17,335 bases of DNA from positions 1 to 17,335 of the forward strand of contig JAAETV010000420.1 in assembly GCA_024227975.1 (NCBI GenBank), written 5' to 3'. Source of the DNA: Actinomycetes bacterium (GTDB taxonomy: Bacteria; Actinomycetota; Acidimicrobiia; Acidimicrobiales; SZUA-35). Position 1 is the stretch's first letter. Each line of letters begins with the position of its first letter. Below, piece after piece: positions 4,657 through 16,497 of the stretch. Both the position numbers and the translations under genes were made by a program. Under the pieces are notes generated by a model that saw nothing but the letters and a program-made list of their open reading frames with translations, was not told where the DNA came from and ran no database searches.

Positions 4657-4666
4657 GGCGATCCGG

Positions 4667-4750
4667 TGCGGACGGGGGGATTCGAACCCCCACACCCGTT
4701 AGGGCGCCAGGACCTAAACCTGGTGCGTCTGCCAGTTCCGCCACGTCCGC
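4667..4750 (-). tRNA. tRNA-Leu, anticodon UAG
   Basis: On the minus strand the acceptor arms GCGGACG (4750-4744) and CGTCCGC (4674-4668) pair fully, followed by discriminator A at 4667. The anticodon stem CCAGG/CCTGG encloses the loop TTTAGGT, giving anticodon TAG for CUA leucine codons. A long variable arm (GCGCCCTAACGGGTGT region) and the T arm GGGGGTTCGAATCCCCC are clear, as expected for a class II tRNA. The 3' CCA is not encoded: CCG follows the discriminator. Confidence 0.96.
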
Positions 4751-7394: not shown

Positions 7395-8113
7395 CGGCAT
7401 CGATCGGCCCGACACCCGCCGATGGGGTTGCTGCGTTGTTCACCGATGCGACCGCCTATGAGTTGTGGGGCCCCGGCGACCCCGAATCGCTCTACCCGAT
7501 CGAGAAGGCCTTGGTGGAACGGGCCGTCAACGGTCGTTTACGTCAGTTCGCCGCCGGCCGCCAGTGCGCCAGAGCCGCCCTCCGCGAGCTCGGCCTCGAA
7601 CCACGCCCATTGGCCAGGACTGTCGGGCGCTCCCCGGCCTGGCCTGCGGGCATCTATGGCTCGATCTCACACACCGACGGCTACGCCATAGCCGCCGTCA
7701 GCGACGGTGCCGACACTGGCAACGGGGGTCGTGCCGGTGGAGGGTTCTCGGTTGGGGTCGATGCCGAGGATGTTGGTCGGGTGACGCCCGAGCTGTATTC
7801 CCGACTGTTCTGCGAAGCCGAACAGTCCCAGCTGGTATCCATGGCTCCAGATGACGCACGGATCGAAGCCACGGTGCTGTTCGGGTTGAAGGAGTCCTTC
7901 TACAAGGCCCAGTTCCCGCTGACCGAGGCCTGGGTCGGGTTCCACGATGTCGAGATCGAGGCCGAGGACGATGTCGACAGCTCGGGGTGGGTACTGCATC
8001 CACGCACTGATCTCGAAGCCTTGGCCCGCGTCACCTGGCCGGTGCGGGGACGAGCCTTGATTCGTGACCAGCTGGTCGTGACCGGGGTCGAGGTCACTCC
8101 TGCTCGGTCGTGA
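7391..8113 (+). CDS. 4'-phosphopantetheinyl transferase (Sfp/EntD/PptT type)
   Basis: This 240-residue protein transfers phosphopantetheine from CoA to a serine of acyl or peptidyl carrier proteins. Motifs in order are FAAGRQCARAALRELG (53-68), WPAGIYGSISHTDGYAIAAV (84-103), the magnesium-binding VGVDAEDVGRV (121-131, with D124 and E126), and FGLKESFYKA (164-173, with K167 and E168). This layout is that of the EntD/PptT branch used for polyketide, lipid or siderophore synthases. No synthase or carrier protein gene lies in the window. Its ATG overlaps the stop of the methyltransferase gene, so translation is probably coupled. Its 3' end overlaps the converging lipoprotein gene by 20 bp. A glycine-rich insertion (106-118) precedes the metal-binding motif. 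Confidence 0.92.
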   Translation: MTASIGPTPADGVAALFTDATAYELWGPGDPESLYPIEKALVERAVNGRLRQFAAGRQCARAALRELGLEPRPLARTVGRSPAWPAGIYGSISHTDGYAIAAVSDGADTGNGGRAGGGFSVGVDAEDVGRVTPELYSRLFCEAEQSQLVSMAPDDARIEATVLFGLKESFYKAQFPLTEAWVGFHDVEIEAEDDVDSSGWVLHPRTDLEALARVTWPVRGRALIRDQLVVTGVEVTPARS

Positions 8114-9278
8114 TGTTGATTGTGGGCGCTCTCCCTTCGGCGATGGTCACAAAGGCTCGTGAGGTGTCGCCGAGGAAGCCGACGGCCTCCCCTTGTTCTT
8201 CGGGTCTGGTCGGTGCTTCGCATGGCTGGCCAGCGAGGGCATCGGCCACGCTCTGGCCTGGTGATCGCTCGAACAACCACACCGTGTCATAGGTTCTGAC
8301 CGCAATCAGCTCCCCGTCGGCCCGAACATCGGCCCCGGTGGCCAGCCCCCCAACGCCGAGCTGGCCGGCCAGGCTGGTGGCAGCCGGAGCTGAGGTCAAT
8401 GTGGCCAGCTGGTCAAGGGCGATCGTTCCCGCCTGCTCTAGTGTCACCTCGGACCCGAACGGTGGTGAGGCGACCCAAACCGTGGCCGGGTTTGGAGCCA
8501 AGAGACCACCGCCGCCAGCACCCGCGCTGATGGCGAATGTCTTGTCGATGATGATCATCTGTCCCGACAAGGGATCGATGAGGAAGGCCTCGGCATCGTG
8601 GGCACCGTCGGGATAGCGCGCTCGGATTGTCTCGACCTCGCTGATGGGGCTGGGCGAGGAAGGGTCGGGCTCGGCGAAACGATAGATGGCGATCTCACTC
8701 CTGATCTGGTCGTTGTCGCCGATGTCGGCCAGGTAGAGCATCCCGTCGACCAGGGCGATGTCCTCGATGTCGACGCTCGAGTCGAGCGGGAGGGCGAAGG
8801 CGCCGAGATTGGCCCCATCAACACCGACGGCGACAACCGCAGCCCGGGATCCGGAGTCATTGTGGGCCCACAACACCCCAGGGTGAGTGGCGGAGGAGAC
8901 GACGCCCGAGGTCTCTGACAGGAAGGGGCTCTGGGCCGTCGTCTCTTCGGCCAGCTCCAGTCCTGCGCATTGCTTCGCCCTCAACTGGAGGCTAGCGGTG
9001 GGCCCTGAGCTCGAGGGTGAGCTTGTCGGCATCGAGGTCGTGGTCGCCCCGGTCGAGGTAGTGACTGCCACCACCTCAGCTGGGGTTGTGCTTGTCGTTG
9101 TGAGGTCGCGGCGCCAACCAGGCGTTTCGGAGTCGGCAACATCGTCGCCTCCGAAGAAGATGCCGCACCCACTCAGGAATGAGCTGACAACAATGAGCAG
9201 GGCCAGGCTGGGCCGCGCCGGCGGGCGTGACTGGGCGCGGTGGCGATGACGACTATCGAGAACCGGGCGAGAACACAT
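8094..9278 (-). CDS. Secreted lipoprotein of unknown function, probably beta-propeller-like
   Basis: This 394-residue protein has a basic N-region (many Arg/His, residues 4-22), a hydrophobic core (LALLIVVSSFL) and a lipobox LSGC with lipidated C38. A Thr/Ser/Pro-rich linker (59-95) follows. The folded part contains SGVVSSATHPGVLWAHNDSGS (124-144) and DIEDIALVDGMLYLADIGDN (170-189), then IAIYRFAEPD. That pattern recurs in secreted bacterial proteins that look like propellers, but I know no established function. It should sit on the outer face of the membrane. A -10 box TAGCAT ends 9 nt before ATG 9278, suggesting a nearly leaderless message. The gene converges on the transferase gene with a 20-bp overlap and diverges from the basic membrane-protein gene. 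Confidence 0.82.
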   Translation of the reverse strand: MCSRPVLDSRHRHRAQSRPPARPSLALLIVVSSFLSGCGIFFGGDDVADSETPGWRRDLTTTSTTPAEVVAVTTSTGATTTSMPTSSPSSSGPTASLQLRAKQCAGLELAEETTAQSPFLSETSGVVSSATHPGVLWAHNDSGSRAAVVAVGVDGANLGAFALPLDSSVDIEDIALVDGMLYLADIGDNDQIRSEIAIYRFAEPDPSSPSPISEVETIRARYPDGAHDAEAFLIDPLSGQMIIIDKTFAISAGAGGGGLLAPNPATVWVASPPFGSEVTLEQAGTIALDQLATLTSAPAATSLAGQLGVGGLATGADVRADGELIAVRTYDTVWLFERSPGQSVADALAGQPCEAPTRPEEQGEAVGFLGDTSRAFVTIAEGRAPTINITTEQE

Positions 9279-9576: not shown

Positions 9577-11223
9577 TTGAAGCGACAGAACAGGCCACCA
9601 GCCGAGGGTCGGCCCATCGAGACTGCGCGTCAAAAGCGCGGCCGGGTCAATGATGGTAATCCAGCTCGGGCACGCTCCCGACAACCAGAGGATCCGACCG
9701 GGCCCCCTGCTCGGTCCAACAGAGAATCGTCGGTACCTTCTGAGCGCCGAAAAAGCGAGGCGGCCAAGCGATCCTCCCAGCAGCAGAAGAGCCGCGGCAA
9801 CCCTGAGCGGGGACGCCCACCCAAGCGGGGGGCGACTGGCGGTGCAGCCGCTGGAGGGGCTGGGCGTAGCAGGCGGGGAGCGTCGGGCGAACCGACTGAT
9901 CCCAATGCCCTGAACAGGAAACGGAGCGCCCCGGCCGACGCTCCTCCGGCAACGGCCCGACGTCGTCGGACAGCCGAGGGGGCGCAGAAGCCGGCGCAGG
10001 CTCCGCCTGGGTCCGACAAGGCGCGGCGTCCCGCTCGTTCCCGGGGTCGCAATGAAGGGCTTTCCCCTGCTATGTCAGCGGCGGCCCGCGCTCGGGCCGA
10101 GGGTGGTCAGGATACGACCCTGATGCCATCTCGTGAAGATGGTCGCTCCAAGGCCAAGATGCCCCCGGCTCCACCGGCCGAGGGCATCGATCTTCGGGCT
10201 GAGAGCGATGGCCAGACAACCTCCTACGACATGCCGAGCGCCTTTGAGCCAGTCGATGACCGCGCCTACGAGCCGACCCCGGCGCTGCTGGCGGCCAAAG
10301 CCGAGCCACTGGGTGAGGCCAAGACAGGTCGCGCTCCGGCCCGATCCAAAGCCAACCGGTCTTCCAAGCCGGGGCGAGCTCCGAAAGCAGGTGCGCCGCG
10401 CCCCGGCAAGCCGCCGGCCGGACCATCCAAGGCCCGTAGCCGAAGGTCCGGGGGCCGGTCATCGATGTCATCGAAGACGGTGGCCGGCATCGTGGGCGGT
10501 GTCGCCCTGCTGGCTGTTGGGCTTGTCGCCTTCTTGTTGACGAGGGGGAGTGATGAATCCGATCCCGGCTTCACCCTGAATGAAGATGGGGTCAGCAATA
10601 CCTCTATCTCGGCCGAGACCGTCGCCCCAGCCGTCGATGAAGCCACGACGACCACCGCGGTCGTGGCCGCCCCCGCCTCCTTGCCTGCAGTCGTCAGCTT
10701 CGACGAAGCCGCTATCGGCCCCATCCAATCCGAAACCGAGTACCAGGTTGGCATCCAGGACGGCCCAGGTAGTGCCCTTTACCGGCTCCTGATCGATGGT
10801 GAACCCCAGGCCGAGCCGGCGCCTCAGCTCCCCCTGACCGTATTCACTCCTGGTCGCCACCTGCTGGTCGTTGAGATAACAAGTCCCGAGGGCGACGTCG
10901 CCACCGATCCCGTCGTTGTCTATGCCCTGGGTTCCATCCCGGCGGCCAGCTTCCGGGCCAATCTGTCGTCGGTCCACATCGAGACCGAAGGGTGGAGAGA
11001 AGCGGTCCGCCAGTTCGACGAGTTCGTGGCTGCGGGCCACACCGAGATGGAGCTGATGCCGAGTGACTGGTTCCCGAGCCTGGTTCCCGGGTACTGGAAC
11101 CTGTTCGTAGACGGGTTCGCCACTGGAGACGAGGCACTGGCCTACTGCGCTCAGTTCGAGCTGGCAGTACCAGATGACTGCTTCGCCGTGCATTTTGATC
11201 CCGACGCCCCGGCCGGTGGTTGA
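9577..11223 (+). CDS. Single-pass membrane protein: basic disordered cytoplasmic half, Ig-like/SPOR-like ectodomain
   Basis: From TTG 9577 this protein has 548 residues. Residues 1 to about 300 are extremely rich in Arg, Lys, Pro, Ala, Gly and Ser, with no hydrophobic core, so probably disordered and strongly basic. One membrane segment (about 302-322, VAGIVGGVALLAVGLVAFLL) follows, then a Thr-rich linker (TTTTAVV). The ectodomain has an Ig-like stretch (ALYRLLIDGEP...GRHLLVVEI) and a C-terminal SPOR-like segment (MPSDWFPSLVPGYWNLFV...) with two cysteines. This ectodomain is clearly homologous to that of the kinase encoded immediately downstream. The basic-inside rule supports the N-in orientation. 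An in-frame TTG at 9484 would give 579 residues. The function is unknown; a kinase partner, substrate or co-receptor is inferred from the paralogy and overlap. Confidence 0.82.
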   Translation: MKRQNRPPAEGRPIETARQKRGRVNDGNPARARSRQPEDPTGPPARSNRESSVPSERRKSEAAKRSSQQQKSRGNPERGRPPKRGATGGAAAGGAGRSRRGASGEPTDPNALNRKRSAPADAPPATARRRRTAEGAQKPAQAPPGSDKARRPARSRGRNEGLSPAMSAAARARAEGGQDTTLMPSREDGRSKAKMPPAPPAEGIDLRAESDGQTTSYDMPSAFEPVDDRAYEPTPALLAAKAEPLGEAKTGRAPARSKANRSSKPGRAPKAGAPRPGKPPAGPSKARSRRSGGRSSMSSKTVAGIVGGVALLAVGLVAFLLTRGSDESDPGFTLNEDGVSNTSISAETVAPAVDEATTTTAVVAAPASLPAVVSFDEAAIGPIQSETEYQVGIQDGPGSALYRLLIDGEPQAEPAPQLPLTVFTPGRHLLVVEITSPEGDVATDPVVVYALGSIPAASFRANLSSVHIETEGWREAVRQFDEFVAAGHTEMELMPSDWFPSLVPGYWNLFVDGFATGDEALAYCAQFELAVPDDCFAVHFDPDAPAGG

Positions 11224-12826
11224 GGGCCACACCGTTGATCTGGGAATTGCGGGCCTCGGGCCAGCAGTCCGAATCGGTAGTGGTGGCTTCGCCGACGTCT
11301 ACCGGGCTGAACAAACCAATCTTCGTCGTGAGGTAGCGGTCAAGGTCCTGCGAGCCGCCGCCGGCGACGATGATGCCAGAATGCGCTTCCAACGCGAGTG
11401 CTATGCCGTCGGGGCCGTGTCCAGCCATCCGAACATCGTTGCTGTCCACGAAGGTGGTTTCACCAGTGACGGTCGTGCCTACCTGGTGATGGAGTACTGC
11501 CCCGGTGGCTCCCTACTCGATCGGATCGAACAGTACGGCCCCCTGCCTGCTGACGAGGTGATTGAGATCGGCACCAAGATCGGGTGGGCCCTCGGCCTAG
11601 CCCACGATTCCGGGGTCCTCCATCGAGATGTGAAGCCGGCCAACATCCTGGTCACGGCCCATGGAGAACCAGCCCTGGCTGATTTCGGTATCGCCAGGGT
11701 CGAAGGGGGTCAGCAGACGGCGACCGGTTTGGTGACGGCCAGTTTCACTCACGCTGCCCCCGAAGTGCTGCAGGGAGGGCCTCCGAGCCCGGCCTCGGAC
11801 CTCTACTCACTCGGTTCGACGATGTTTGCCCTCTTCACCGGTCTGGCCCCCCACTCCAGGCCGGGCGACGATTCGGCGTGGGCCCTGATGCATCGAGTAG
11901 TTTCCGAACCGATCCCAGACCCGGCCTCGGTAGGGATGGTCGACCCACTGGCCTCGGTGGTCCGCATCGTGACCGCCCCCCACCCCGAGCAACGCTTTCA
12001 GACCGCGGGGGATCTCGTCTCCGCCTTGTCGGCTCCCGGACCCGTTGCCGTCACTGGATCCGCTGCACCCCCGCGACCTGTTGCGGCCCCTGGATCTGCC
12101 TACACCACAGCCCAGATCCCGGTGGTGCCAACCCTCACCCCCAGCCCGTCCGTGGCCACGGCCCCAGTCGAAACGGTCAGGCAGCCATCGTCGAGGAAGG
12201 GTCTGGTCCGTGGCCTGGTTCTGGTCCTCATACTCGGCGCAATCGGGGCCGGTGCGGTTGGGTGGTTGACCCTCCAGGACGACGAGCCGCTCCCCGATTT
12301 GGTATTCAGCTTCCCCGCTGGGGCCACCGGGCCTCTCGACGAGGGTGAAAGCTATGAGCTGTCGGTCCAGGGCGGTCACGATGCCACCCTGTACCGGCTC
12401 TTTGTCGATGGTGAGCCCGCCGGCCAGCCTTCGAGCCCGTTGGAGCCGTTCATCGCTCGGGCCGGGCGTCATTCGGTGGCCGTCGAAGTCACCCGAGGCG
12501 ACATGATCGAATTGACTGATGTTGTCGAGACCTACACCATCGGCGCTCTCCCACCGGCCGGTCTACGAGTCAACCTCGCATCGGTGACAGCCGATCCGAG
12601 CAGGTGGTCGACCGCTATCCGCCAATTCGATCGCCTGGTCGACGACGGCCATGTCGAGCTCGAATTGCTCCCCTCAGATCGGTTCGCCTCGCTGACCCCT
12701 GGCTACTGGAATATCTACGTCCCAGGTTTCGGTGAGAATCGAGCCGAGGCCAACGACTACTGTGCGAGCTTTTCGCTGGTGAGCGCCAACGATTGCTTCG
12801 TCAGCTACTTCGATCCCAACGCCTGA
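11216..12826 (+). CDS. Transmembrane Ser/Thr protein kinase with Ig-like/SPOR-like ectodomain
   Basis: The protein has 536 residues from GTG 11216. The kinase domain (about 8-273) has the glycine loop IGSGGFADVY, catalytic lysine K43 in VAVKVL, E61, HRDVKPANIL with D138, DFGIA (156-160), an activation loop with several Thr, and APE (181-183). It is a complete Hanks-type kinase expected to be active. A Pro/Ala/Thr-rich juxtamembrane linker (about 274-327) leads to one membrane helix (about 330-353). The ectodomain (about 356-536) lacks PASTA repeats; instead it is paralogous to that of the upstream protein, with LYRLFVDGEP, LTPGYWNIYV and two cysteines in the SPOR-like part. The start could instead be ATG 11174, which overlaps the upstream gene by 50 bp; GTG 11216 overlaps by 8 bp and sits closer to the conserved VDLGIAGLG. 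Confidence 0.93.
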   Translation: MVEGHTVDLGIAGLGPAVRIGSGGFADVYRAEQTNLRREVAVKVLRAAAGDDDARMRFQRECYAVGAVSSHPNIVAVHEGGFTSDGRAYLVMEYCPGGSLLDRIEQYGPLPADEVIEIGTKIGWALGLAHDSGVLHRDVKPANILVTAHGEPALADFGIARVEGGQQTATGLVTASFTHAAPEVLQGGPPSPASDLYSLGSTMFALFTGLAPHSRPGDDSAWALMHRVVSEPIPDPASVGMVDPLASVVRIVTAPHPEQRFQTAGDLVSALSAPGPVAVTGSAAPPRPVAAPGSAYTTAQIPVVPTLTPSPSVATAPVETVRQPSSRKGLVRGLVLVLILGAIGAGAVGWLTLQDDEPLPDLVFSFPAGATGPLDEGESYELSVQGGHDATLYRLFVDGEPAGQPSSPLEPFIARAGRHSVAVEVTRGDMIELTDVVETYTIGALPPAGLRVNLASVTADPSRWSTAIRQFDRLVDDGHVELELLPSDRFASLTPGYWNIYVPGFGENRAEANDYCASFSLVSANDCFVSYFDPNA

Positions 12827-12832
12827 GTCCGT

Positions 12833-14110
12833 GTGAGGAAGATCTTCCACGGTTGGAAGGTGGTAGGAGCCGGCGCCGCCATCCAGGCCCTACACAGCGG
12901 GCTCATGACCCAGGCCTTTGGCAACTATGCCGTCCTCCTCCAGCGAGAGTTCGGCTGGACTCGCACCCTTTTCTCGGCCGCCTATTCCCTGACCAGGGCC
13001 GAGAGCGGGCTCCTGGGCCCAGCCCAGGGTTGGGCCCTCGATCGTTTCGGGACCAAGGCCGTGATGCGAGTGGGGGTGGTCGTGATGGCTGCCGGCTTCA
13101 TCGCCCTCAGCCAGATCCAGAACGCCACCCAATTCATCATCGCCTACCTCATCATGGCCGTCGGGATGAGCCTGTCGGGGTTCCTCAGTATCACGACGGC
13201 AACGGTGAGATGGTTCGAGCGTCGACGGGCCAGGGCCCTTGCCCTGTCGGGAACCGGATTCGCCATCGGTGGCATCGTCACCCCCGTTGTCGTCTATTGC
13301 CTGCGAACCTTCGGCTGGCGCTGGACCGCAGCCGTGAGCGGCCTCCTGCTCTTCGCCATCGCTATGCCCCTGACCTTCTGGTTCGGAGACTCACCCCAAA
13401 GCAAGGGGGAGCATGTCGACGGGATCGATCCCGACACCGTTCAGATCGCTAGGGCCAGGGCGGAAGGGGTGTCCGATGTCCACTTCACGGCCCGTGAAGC
13501 CATGCGCACCCGCGCCTTTTGGATGATCTCGCTGGGTCATGCTTCGGCCTTGCTCGTTGTGGGCGCCGTCATTGCCCACCTGTCCCTCTATCTAACCGAG
13601 GAGCAGGGTTTCACCCTCCAGCAGGCCAGCTTCGTTGGCGGGGCCCTACCCCTTCTCCAGTTCGTCGGCCAGTTGGCCGGTGGGATACTGGGTGACCGGG
13701 TCAACAAGCGGCTCCTGGCATCATTGGCCATGCTCGGCCATATGGGCGGCCTGCTACTGCTCACCTACGCCACCACCCGCTGGATGATCTGGCTGTTCAT
13801 TCCCTTTCACGGCTTCGCCTGGGGACTCCGAGGACCCCTCATGCAGGCCCTTCGAGCCGACTACTTCGGGTCGACGTCGTTCGGCCAGATCATGGGGGCA
13901 TCGTCGATGGTGGTCATGTTCGGCATGGTCGGTGGCCCTCTCATAGCCGGTTCGCTGGCTGACGCCACCGGCACCTACCGTCTCGGGTTCACGGTCCTGG
14001 CTCTCATGGCGGGGGCTGGGCTGATCTTCTTCGTGTTGGCCACCCCGCCGTCGCCACCCCTGCGATCGGTCGCCGATCCCGACCCGAGCATCTCGCCGCC
14101 GGCTTCCTAG
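12833..14110 (+). CDS. MFS transporter, oxalate/formate-antiporter-like
   Basis: This 425-residue protein has about twelve hydrophobic segments and is an inner-membrane secondary carrier. The start HGWKVVGAGAAIQAL is typical of the monocarboxylate/oxalate-formate antiporter branch. The loop between helices 2 and 3 has the MFS motif A-like GWALDRFGTKAV (66-77, with D70, R71 and G73), repeated in the second half as GGILGDRVNKRL. A soluble loop of about 40 residues links the halves. The start is GTG 12833, only 6 nt after the kinase stop, so the two are probably co-transcribed. The substrate cannot be read from sequence; the adjacent N-carbamoyl-amino-acid-type hydrolase makes an organic anion or ureido compound conceivable. 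The tail is Pro/Ser-rich. Confidence 0.88.
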   Translation: MRKIFHGWKVVGAGAAIQALHSGLMTQAFGNYAVLLQREFGWTRTLFSAAYSLTRAESGLLGPAQGWALDRFGTKAVMRVGVVVMAAGFIALSQIQNATQFIIAYLIMAVGMSLSGFLSITTATVRWFERRRARALALSGTGFAIGGIVTPVVVYCLRTFGWRWTAAVSGLLLFAIAMPLTFWFGDSPQSKGEHVDGIDPDTVQIARARAEGVSDVHFTAREAMRTRAFWMISLGHASALLVVGAVIAHLSLYLTEEQGFTLQQASFVGGALPLLQFVGQLAGGILGDRVNKRLLASLAMLGHMGGLLLLTYATTRWMIWLFIPFHGFAWGLRGPLMQALRADYFGSTSFGQIMGASSMVVMFGMVGGPLIAGSLADATGTYRLGFTVLALMAGAGLIFFVLATPPSPPLRSVADPDPSISPPAS

Positions 14111-14139
14111 CAGCCGTGGTCGGTGCCACCCTGGTAGCC

Positions 14140-15375
14140 ATGACAATACGAGTAGATGGGGAACGGCTGTGGAGTCGATTGATGACGATGGCCGAGGTCG
14201 GGGCCACCCCAAACGGGGGGAGTAACCGCCAAGCGCTCAGCAACGACGACGCCGCCGGTCGAGCCCTCCTCCTCGGTTGGGCCGAGACCGCAGGCTGCAG
14301 GGCCGAGATCGACGAGATCGGCAACCTCTTCCTCCGCCGGGCGGGTTCCAATGAAAAGGCCGATCCGGTCATGATCGGTAGCCATCTCGACACCCAGCCC
14401 ACCGGTGGACGCTTCGACGGCGTCTATGGGGTACTCGGCGGATTCGAGGTCATCGAGCGGCTCAATGATCTGGACCGCGTGACCGAGCGCCCGATCGAAC
14501 TGGTGGTGTGGACGAACGAGGAGGGCTCACGGTTCCAGTACTCGATGATGGGGTCGGCCGTCTGGGCCGGGAAGCTGGCTCTCAGCACCGCATGCGAGTT
14601 GGAGGACGTCGACGGGATCACGGTCGGGGCTGAGCTTGATCGCCTTGGTTGGCGGGGTTCGAGACCAGCTCGATTCCGGCCATACCACGCGGCCTTCGAG
14701 CTCCATATCGAGCAGGGGCCGATCCTGGAGCGCGATGGGCTGGAGGTTGGTGTCGTGACCGGAGTCCAGGGGCTCAGATGGTTCACGATCGAACTGGCCG
14801 GTTTCCCCGCCCATGCCGGACCGACACCGATGACGGGCCGCCGAGATCCGGCCCGGGCCATCGCTGCCATCGTGGATGGGGTCTACGCCGCAGCCGAGGC
14901 GCTGGCCCCGTGGGGGAGGGCGACGTTTGCCCAGTTCGCGTCGACCCCAGTTTCGCCAAACACGATTCCCGAGACCCTCACCTGTACCCTCGACCTTCGC
15001 CACCCCGAGATTGGATACCTCGATCAGCTCGAAGCCGAGATGAGGGCCGTTGTTGCTTCCGTGGCCGAGCAGACCGGGGTCGGAGCCCAAGTGACCATCC
15101 AGAACGACTCACCCCCGGTCCACTTTGACCCCGACTGCATCAAGGCTGTCCAAGGAGCCGTCGACGGGCTCGGCTTCACCAACACCTCGATGGTGTCGGG
15201 GGCGGGCCACGACGCTTGCTATGTGGCTACCAGGAGCCCAACGTCGATGATCTTCGTACCCTGCGACGACGGCCTGAGCCACAACGAGGCTGAGTCGATC
15301 AGTCTCGATCAGGCCGAGCGGGGGGCCAGCGTCCTACTCGGAGCGGTCGAGACGATGTCAGGACCTCGATGCTGA
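14140..15375 (+). CDS. M20-type N-carbamoyl-L-amino-acid / ureidopropionase / allantoate amidohydrolase
   Basis: This 411-residue cytoplasmic metallohydrolase removes carbamoyl (or related ureido) groups from amino acids. Two-metal ligands are visible: H82 in GSHLDTQPTGGRFDGV, D93, E127/E128 in TNEEGSRF, H189 in HIEQGPILE, and H381 in LSHNEAE. FPAHAGPTPM (222-231, with H225) and GAGHDA (354-359) are further family motifs. The exact substrate (N-carbamoyl amino acid, beta-ureidopropionate or allantoate) cannot be separated by eye. The frame opens at a GTG at 14116, but ATG 14140 gives the family-like N-terminus IRVDGERLWSRLM. It follows the transporter gene by 29 nt on the same strand and may form an uptake-plus-hydrolysis pair with it. 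Confidence 0.9.
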   Translation: MTIRVDGERLWSRLMTMAEVGATPNGGSNRQALSNDDAAGRALLLGWAETAGCRAEIDEIGNLFLRRAGSNEKADPVMIGSHLDTQPTGGRFDGVYGVLGGFEVIERLNDLDRVTERPIELVVWTNEEGSRFQYSMMGSAVWAGKLALSTACELEDVDGITVGAELDRLGWRGSRPARFRPYHAAFELHIEQGPILERDGLEVGVVTGVQGLRWFTIELAGFPAHAGPTPMTGRRDPARAIAAIVDGVYAAAEALAPWGRATFAQFASTPVSPNTIPETLTCTLDLRHPEIGYLDQLEAEMRAVVASVAEQTGVGAQVTIQNDSPPVHFDPDCIKAVQGAVDGLGFTNTSMVSGAGHDACYVATRSPTSMIFVPCDDGLSHNEAESISLDQAERGASVLLGAVETMSGPRC

Positions 15376-15441
15376 TCTCGGACCCACCATGGTCCGTTCC
15401 TCTCGGACACCCCATCATGGCATCCGCGCTGACAACTCGGA

Positions 15442-16497
15442 ATGATCCGCCGCTACGGTGACCGCATCGATGGCGAGGTGACACGGTTGACGTTGACAGC
15501 AAGGAGGCCACTCGGGCTTCGAGCCATGGCTCTGATCTTGTTGTTGTTGTTGGTCGGCGCCTGCTCATCCTCTGATCCCGAGACAGAGCAGATATCGTCG
15601 ACCACCCTCGTCGGTGAGTTCGAATCGAAGCCGTCGATCTCGTTGGCGGTCAATGATTGGACGGCCTCGGCCATCAATGTTGCCATCGCCGAGCGAATCA
15701 TCGAGCGCTATCTCGGCTACCCGGTGTTGCCGGTCCGCCTCGATGATACGTCTGAGATGTATGAGGGACTGGCCGAAGGTTCCCTGGATGCTGTGCTCGA
15801 GGTCTGGCCGTCGACCGTGAGCGAGCGGGATGATCGCTATTTCGAGAGGGGAGAGGTCGTCGATCTCGGGCCCTTGGGTGTCGTCGGCAAGGTCGGCTGG
15901 TTCGTACCGCGCTATGTCATCGACCAGAATCCAGGCCTGGGGTCGTGGGAGGGATATGCCACCCCCGAGGCGGCCAGCCTCTTCGCCACCCCCGAGACTG
16001 CGCCCGAGGGCCGCTTCCTTGGGACCAATCCCGACTACCAGCAATACGACCAGCAGATCATCGACAACCTGCGCTTGCCCTTCGAGGTCGAGTTCTCCGG
16101 TTCGGAGATGGCGACCATGGTCGAGTTGGCGGCTCGCTATGAGGCCGGTGAACCGATCCTGTTGTATTGGTGGACCCCAACCGCCGCCGTTGGCATCTAT
16201 GACCTCGTCAACGTGAGCTTGCCGACCCCGACCGAGACCTGCATGGCGTCGGCCCGAGCCGACGATGGAACCGTCAACTGCGACTACCCCGAAGATGAGC
16301 TGTTCAAAGTGTCCTCGCCCCAGCTCGAGGCCAAGGCCCCTGAGGTCGCCCGCTTCCTCAGCCGCTTCGTGATGACGACGAGCGATCAGCTGGCCCTACT
16401 GGCAGCAGTGGAGGGAGAGGGCGTCACCATAGACGCCGCTGCGCTCTCTTGGGTCGAGGCCAACGAAGCCACCTGGCGGACCTGGCTCGAAGGCTGA
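15442..16497 (+). CDS. Glycine-betaine/choline-type (OpuAC-like) substrate-binding lipoprotein
   Basis: This 351-residue protein has an Arg-containing N-region, the hydrophobic run MALILLLLLV and a lipobox VGAC with lipidated C41, so it is a surface lipoprotein. The mature part resembles quaternary-amine binding proteins: VNDWTASAINVAIAERII (70-87), LGYPV, and GSLDAVLEVWPSTV, with the aromatic residues that would make a cation-binding cage. Two cysteines (TETCMAS and TVNCDYP) may form a disulfide. No ABC permease or ATPase gene is adjacent, so its transporter must be elsewhere or the protein works alone. The true start is uncertain: ATG 15442, or a later GTG/TTG at 15478-15493 that still keeps the basic residues before the core. 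It converges with the dehydrogenase gene, 7 bp between stops, across a GAGGGCCCTC palindrome. Confidence 0.87.
   Translation: MIRRYGDRIDGEVTRLTLTARRPLGLRAMALILLLLLVGACSSSDPETEQISSTTLVGEFESKPSISLAVNDWTASAINVAIAERIIERYLGYPVLPVRLDDTSEMYEGLAEGSLDAVLEVWPSTVSERDDRYFERGEVVDLGPLGVVGKVGWFVPRYVIDQNPGLGSWEGYATPEAASLFATPETAPEGRFLGTNPDYQQYDQQIIDNLRLPFEVEFSGSEMATMVELAARYEAGEPILLYWWTPTAAVGIYDLVNVSLPTPTETCMASARADDGTVNCDYPEDELFKVSSPQLEAKAPEVARFLSRFVMTTSDQLALLAAVEGEGVTIDAAALSWVEANEATWRTWLEG

Follow-up and report, generated by a model that had tools for sequence, protein, structure and literature searches.

A receptor Ser/Thr kinase and an overlapping companion gene that encode homologous ectodomains

Anatomy of the gene pair

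We analyzed a 17,335-nucleotide stretch of DNA from an Actinomycetes bacterium of the Acidimicrobiia (contig JAAETV010000420.1; hereafter, the window). Its plus strand carries two overlapping genes: one at 9577–11223, encoding a membrane protein without a kinase domain (hereafter, the companion), and one at 11216–12826, encoding a receptor Ser/Thr kinase. Both lie where an earlier note, made from the sequence alone, had placed two adjacent, overlapping genes. The features of the pair are as follows.

9577..11223, plus strand: companion gene, encoding a 548-residue single-pass membrane protein with an N-terminal cytoplasmic tail, a transmembrane helix, and an ectodomain made of an immunoglobulin (Ig)-like and a SPOR-like half
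9577..10479, plus strand: companion cytoplasmic tail, residues 1–301, net charge +36
10270..10314, plus strand: short conserved tail motif EPTPALLAAKAEPLG, companion residues 232–246, from the columns of alignment A1
10480..10539, plus strand: companion transmembrane helix, residues 302–321, from hydropathy and a helix in the AlphaFold2 model
10681..10935, plus strand: Ig-like half of the companion ectodomain, about residues 369–453, from strand order in the model and homology to the kinase ectodomain
10945..11199, plus strand: SPOR-like half of the companion ectodomain, about residues 457–541, with two conserved Cys
11216..11223, plus strand: overlap GTGGTTGA, holding the kinase GTG start and the companion TGA stop
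11216..12826, plus strand: receptor Ser/Thr kinase gene, encoding 536 residues
11270..12040, plus strand: Hanks-type kinase domain, residues 19–275, with catalytic motifs present
12212..12274, plus strand: kinase transmembrane helix, about residues 333–353, by eye from the sequence
12296..12544, plus strand: Ig-like half of the kinase ectodomain, residues 361–443
12554..12817, plus strand: SPOR-like half of the kinase ectodomain, residues 447–534, beta-alpha-beta-beta-alpha-beta in the AlphaFold2 model, with an HH comparison to same-class SPOR-like domains

The companion starts at the TTG at 9577, a start supported by the (M/L)KRQNRP N-terminus that it has in common with its relatives P0037, P0041, and L002. 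We take the GTG at 11216 as the kinase start, which gives an 8-base overlap with the companion. A near-identical kinase in a database record (P0011) starts at the ATG at 11174 instead; this start was rejected by reasoning, as the stretch before GTG 11216 is merely the part that overlaps the companion frame.

The kinase domain matches Pfam Pkinase (PF00069) at 144.9 bits (cut-off 31.7; E 4e-42) and contains the glycine loop, VAVK, HRDVKPAN, DFG, and APE, so that one of the two genes does encode a complete Hanks-type kinase, as the earlier note had read it. Among NCBIfam models, the PASTA kinase NF033483 scores highest, at 206.8 bits against a cut-off of 450 and over residues 19–273 only; with this score under the cut-off and no PASTA domain in a Pfam scan of the window kinase, the protein does not belong with the PASTA kinases. 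The same scan reveals no kinase domain in the companion and no Pfam family over its cut-off.

The two ectodomains are homologous over their whole length (BLASTP, 77 of 174 residues identical, 44%, E 1e-44). The earlier note had proposed the same ectodomain in both proteins from 15 identities among 22 residues of a C-terminal segment, and had allowed that a full alignment might not exceed chance. That count is correct, but it is just part of the 174-residue match, which lies far above chance. In the AlphaFold2 model (pLDDT 95.6) the ectodomain comprises an Ig-like module followed by a C-terminal SPOR-like module, and the order of the main elements is common to the predicted models of the kinase and companion ectodomains. 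In a fold search whose listed matches all concern the Ig-like half, this half matches Ig/FN3-like domains structurally. The SPOR-like half (model md1ee4e8fd5c1, residues 93–176) is predicted as beta-alpha-beta-beta-alpha-beta, which agrees with the ribonucleoprotein (RNP)-like fold in order of elements, not by superposition on a SPOR structure. Both modules of the ectodomain that the earlier note described as unusual resemble known folds. A PDB sequence search with the ectodomain profile returned three sequences at E ≤ 10, the best being 7ong (E 4e-4), with no stretch passing alone.

We call the C-terminal half SPOR-like, not SPOR, because its matches to Pfam and E. coli SPOR domains are weak and those to intermediate domains of the same class are strong. 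The Pfam SPOR family is listed for two of the 39 rows of A3 (best E 0.092), and the best PF05036 match in genome G267, 19.9 bits and so below the cut-off of 21, lies inside the kinase ectodomain. In genomes of the class to which G002 belongs, the companion profile also picked up domains of further proteins, which look by eye like lipoproteins and trypsin-like proteases. Four of these domains, taken from three of the proteins, all match Pfam SPOR at 19.7–22.4 bits, one of them over the cut-off. An alignment of the C-terminal half (67 rows) matches eight same-class SPOR-like domains with an HH probability of 98 (E 2e-12) and a score of 66.7, against a maximum of 11.2 in 100 column shuffles. These eight domains in turn match four E. 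coli SPOR domains with an HH probability of 50 (E 2e-5); for the direct comparison of our C-terminal alignment with the E. coli domains, the shuffle null is uninformative (outlier score 135). The profile search also brought up L022, L036, and L039, predicted secreted proteins that appear by eye to hold a trypsin-like protease between two SPOR-like domains.

Distribution, adjacency, and ancestry

A protein database search at E ≤ 0.001 recovered nine kinases and 32 companions, and for five of the nine kinases the longest contig is equal in size to that of a companion match (6223, 11171, 7399, 10230, and 2262). The genome_contigs scan gave two loci, and relatives were then sought in the genomes of those loci. 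Within the family of G002, 16 of 39 genomes have the ectodomain, 15 of them carrying a main-clade companion and G522 carrying a diverged one. Kinases with this ectodomain were found in eight genomes (G001, G002, G267, G530, G531, G534, G537, and G538; that of G530 is cut by contig ends). Kinase and companion adjoin in seven of the eight relatives' genomes that have both, which bears out the adjacency on which the earlier note had made its proposal depend.

The GTGGNTGA overlap is present at seven of eight paired loci (the window, G001, G002, G530, G531, G537, and G538). Inside GTGGNTGA, which contains the companion stop, lies a GTG in the kinase frame, directly 5′ of the conserved kinase N-terminus; in G537 an alternative kinase ATG stands one codon upstream of the overlap GTG. 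Given this conservation, we infer from the sequences that translation of the companion and the kinase may be coupled.

In seven genomes (G505, G528, G529, G532, G533, G535, and G536) a companion lies close to the same two genes, clpP and trmA, and a genome-wide search at E ≤ 1e-5 yielded no kinase with this ectodomain; this absence is no proof, as the completeness of these genomes is not stated. At these seven loci, the 4.2–9.8 kb after the companion contain no kinase-like stretch (best 26 bits, E 0.19). Because the companion is kept beside clpP and trmA where no such kinase was found, it probably serves some function independently. The proposal of a two-protein module thus gains from the conserved adjacency and the 8-base overlap, but the seven genomes that keep the companion and show no such kinase speak against a strict form of it. 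Extra kinases with the same ectodomain occur at L074 (G534), L084 (G537), and L069 (G267) with no companion adjoining, the companion lying elsewhere in the genome. At L086 (8776–9446, G001), an additional ectodomain copy and a small fragment of a kinase domain overlap in different frames, which looks like a decayed kinase gene.

At the class level, 85 of 395 genomes match at E ≤ 0.001, most with low scores and in tail columns, and strong matches are confined to G002 and G267. The matches in G367, G257, G371, G329, and G178 fall in the SPOR-like columns and represent SPOR-like domains of other proteins; those in G247, G191, and G333 likewise fall in these columns. At the order level (E ≤ 1e-20) three of 198 genomes match around G002 and three of 198 around G001, and at the phylum level the kinase ectodomain matches two of 396 genomes at E ≤ 1e-6, the G630 match being limited to the SPOR-like half. 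Homologues may have been missed at all three levels, because four to eight candidates per genome were scored. Among the 23 family genomes without an ectodomain match, 22 have a TrmA-like gene; the 20 stretches after it (G513 and G526 omitted; nine of the 20 under 6.2 kb) hold no companion and no kinase, and gene order after TrmA is not kept in them.

We constructed an unrooted phylogeny of the ectodomains with IQ-TREE (67 sequences, 182 columns). Of the 47 companion ectodomains, 46 group in a single clade (support 99/98), and outside it fall all 20 kinase ectodomains together with the long-branched G522 row. Because the kinase partners of both companion clades fall on the kinase side, the tree indicates a single split, older than both companion clades, if both genes descended together. 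The sensor duplication that the earlier note had suggested therefore appears as one split; the unrooted tree does not say which form, kinase or companion, came first. P0012, nearly identical to the window sequence, and P0043, which is diverged, were left out of A1, the tree, and the motif counts, and P0011, a fragment, was left out of A2 and the tree.

The companion tail and its possible relation to the kinase

AlphaFold2 prediction of companion residues 187–306 gave block means of 41–55, and this low confidence, in a model that covers residues 187–301 of the tail, upholds the view of the tail as disordered. The cytoplasmic half had also been described as very basic. This holds in the window, where the 301 residues before the transmembrane helix carry a net charge of +36, but not as a conserved trait: among 45 of the 46 other companions (the sequence from the 46th, G001, ends before the tail), tail charge ranges from −17 (G529) to +37 (G267), with genome rows taken from stop-to-stop frames, and charge as a conserved property was rejected. 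Tail lengths vary between rows because genome rows are such frames and many database rows start late.

What is conserved in the tail is short. Across the A1 columns of companion residues 161–300, the commonest residue accounts for 42–62% of the rows in most ten-residue blocks, the better-kept blocks being 231–240 (88%), 291–300 (75%), and 241–250 (70%). In EPTPALLAAKAEPLG, A236, L238, A239, A240, E243, P244, and L245 are present in 31 of 31 rows, and position 234 holds Thr in 28 rows and Ser in one. Thr234 is the best kept of the 23 judgeable tail Ser/Thr positions, defined as those filled in at least 12 of the 31 rows; next comes Ser299, beside the membrane (24 of 31). AlphaFold2 places a four-residue helix at residues 236–239 with low confidence. 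The sister clade has another motif, LQ(D/E)TE(F/M/I)KLA, before the transmembrane helix in five of five genomes with a kinase and none of seven without. At that site, five of the seven kinase-less genomes have RP(Q/R)LELA, G529 has PPKLELA, and G505 has QKLRLA. The G267 companion has neither motif, the G001 tail is cut off, and no LQDTE or ALLAA motif was seen by eye in P0043.

To our knowledge, little is settled about the way in which bacterial receptor kinases find their membrane substrates at the wall. For this pair we favor, tentatively and at somewhat less than an even chance, a reading in which the companion stands at the wall in the manner of MapZ or FtsN, and the kinase, bearing the same ectodomain, meets it there and phosphorylates its tail. 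The companion would be a bitopic wall-binding protein, with one membrane helix and a disordered tail carrying short linear motifs. Its Ig-like half would act as a pedestal, and its SPOR-like half would hold peptidoglycan at a particular envelope site, for example the septum or the poles. The duplicated ectodomain copy on the kinase would gather both proteins at the same wall site, and the conserved gene overlap would couple their synthesis. The kinase would then phosphorylate a tail Thr (in the window, Thr234 of EPTPALLAAKAEPLG; in the sister clade, the Thr within LQDTEFKLA) and would thereby regulate what the tail recruits. The companion would also have a kinase-independent task, since some lineages keep it alone.

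If the tail is the partner or target of the kinase, the pair would represent a new layout for bacterial wall sensing. It offers a natural experiment, in which a kinase and a candidate substrate share a duplicated ectodomain and overlapping genes, and there are lineages with the companion in which no such kinase turned up; whether kinase and substrate meet through an ectodomain that both possess becomes directly testable, with candidate Thr sites supplied.

The closest working parallel is MapZ (LocZ) with StkP in Streptococcus pneumoniae, which shows that such a couple exists. As described in the accessible parts of the reports, MapZ has a disordered tail in which StkP phosphorylates two Thr, and a two-module ectodomain, composed of a pedestal and a C-terminal, peptidoglycan-interacting module (PMC4931243, PMC7055233). 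The companion resembles it in being bitopic, with a largely disordered N-terminal cytoplasmic domain (modelled from residue 187), one transmembrane helix, and a two-module ectodomain. The parallel is an analogy from architecture, not membership: StkP has an ectodomain of the PASTA type, and those parts describe no ectodomain shared with MapZ, whereas the window pair shares its ectodomain and its genes overlap.

In SPOR-domain proteins (FtsN, DamX, DedD, and RlpA), a small C-terminal domain of RNP-like fold is mostly joined to an N-terminal transmembrane anchor via disordered regions, according to the accessible text of PMC6895207. The strand and helix order predicted for the SPOR-like half fits that of such a domain. 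The window ectodomain differs in that it contains an Ig-like half, has a conserved pair of Cys, and in one copy is joined to a kinase. With the PASTA kinases (PknB, StkP, PrkC) the window kinase has in common a single-pass, Hanks-type architecture and, possibly, a wall-facing ectodomain; it differs in the kind of ectodomain and in the kinase-less paralogue adjoining it. The PknB ectodomain binds muropeptides and is needed for the location of PknB at mid-cell and poles (PMC3145798, in the part available). Our literature search, largely without subscription papers, found no description of a bacterial receptor kinase with a kinase-less paralogue bearing the same ectodomain, or of a kinase with a SPOR ectodomain. 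This agrees with the earlier note, which knew of no described system with this layout; the folds and the MapZ parallel are already known, and the layout of the gene pair seems new.

Several observations weigh against placing the companion at the wall as a tail substrate of the kinase. Pfam SPOR finds no match in either window protein, and the window-type C-terminal domain does not match the four E. coli SPOR domains significantly (HH probability 2). The two genes stand on separate contigs in G267, and in G534 they are adjacent without overlap. Thr234 is lost in two of the 31 rows of A1. The association of the sister-clade motif with the kinase amounts to two independent contrasts on the tree, both pointing one way (sign test p 0.5), and the clade of the window companion has kinases yet lacks LQDTE. 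The idea of the tail as a substrate or output arm thus draws support from a near-invariant Thr motif and from a second one that tracks the kinase, but the tracking comes down to those two contrasts. The genes after the kinase, which encode an MFS transporter, an M20 hydrolase, and a ProX-like protein, are not cell-division genes. Finally, in the available part of the MapZ report, phosphomimetic changes of the two Thr left contacts with FtsZ or lipids unaltered (PMC7055233), so that even for MapZ it is not clear what this phosphorylation does.

A lesser possibility is that the proteins form a receptor and co-receptor couple, made together through translational coupling, in which the shared wall-binding ectodomain presents the disordered tail of the paralogue to the kinase as a dedicated substrate, and the tail, once the kinase is gone, is free to drop its Thr motif.

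We consider it unlikely that the companion acts as a pseudoreceptor, whose ectodomain heterodimerises with that of the kinase or competes for its ligand and so tunes the kinase, while the tail matters little. In animals and plants, kinase-less receptors tune kinase receptors in this way. Ectodomain homology over the whole length, conserved adjacency, and conserved overlap would all suit such an arrangement, and there is a precedent for a membrane partner tuning a receptor kinase in AuxB of S. aureus, which binds PknB and antagonises its extracellular PASTA part (PMC12505970, in the part available). The conserved motifs in the tail argue against it, as do the seven genomes in which the companion is kept and a search found no such kinase.

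Similarly doubtful is the view that the companion works mainly without the kinase, in the envelope or in division, and that the kinase shares only the targeting ectodomain, has other substrates, and has no functional link to it. Companions at the same locus without such a kinase (seven genomes) and kinases without an adjoining companion (G534, G537, and G267, at L074, L084, and L069) speak for this view. Yet adjacency and the GTGGNTGA overlap are kept across deeply diverged pairs, and the sister-clade Thr motif separates the five genomes with the kinase from the seven without.

Improbable, finally, is a pair that senses a small molecule and controls the neighboring MFS, M20 amidohydrolase, and ProX-like genes, its ectodomain binding a solute or polysaccharide rather than peptidoglycan: six bases separate the kinase from the MFS frame at 12833, and in relatives, too, mfs, m20, or proX is found close to the pair, but L077, L078, L080, L081, and L082 keep the companion with none of the three found in the stretch covered, and the SPOR-like half points to a module that binds peptidoglycan in the members studied (PMC6895207, accessible text).

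Neighboring genes

Close after the kinase, at 12833–16497, lie genes for an MFS transporter, an M20 amidohydrolase, and a ProX-like binding protein (OpuAC), at least one of which recurs in relatives; no other ABC transporter part was seen in the window beside the ProX-like protein. A phage origin of the locus was rejected, as the companion has no match in 50,697 phage records at E ≤ 1e-5 and most of the scanned neighbors are housekeeping genes. On the minus strand, at 8094–9278, a predicted lipoprotein adjoins the companion; it has no match in Pfam (E ≤ 1) or NCBIfam (E ≤ 0.1), and similar stretches occur in L002, L076, and L085. A tRNA-Leu gene lies between rdgB and clpP, at 4665–4750 on the minus strand.

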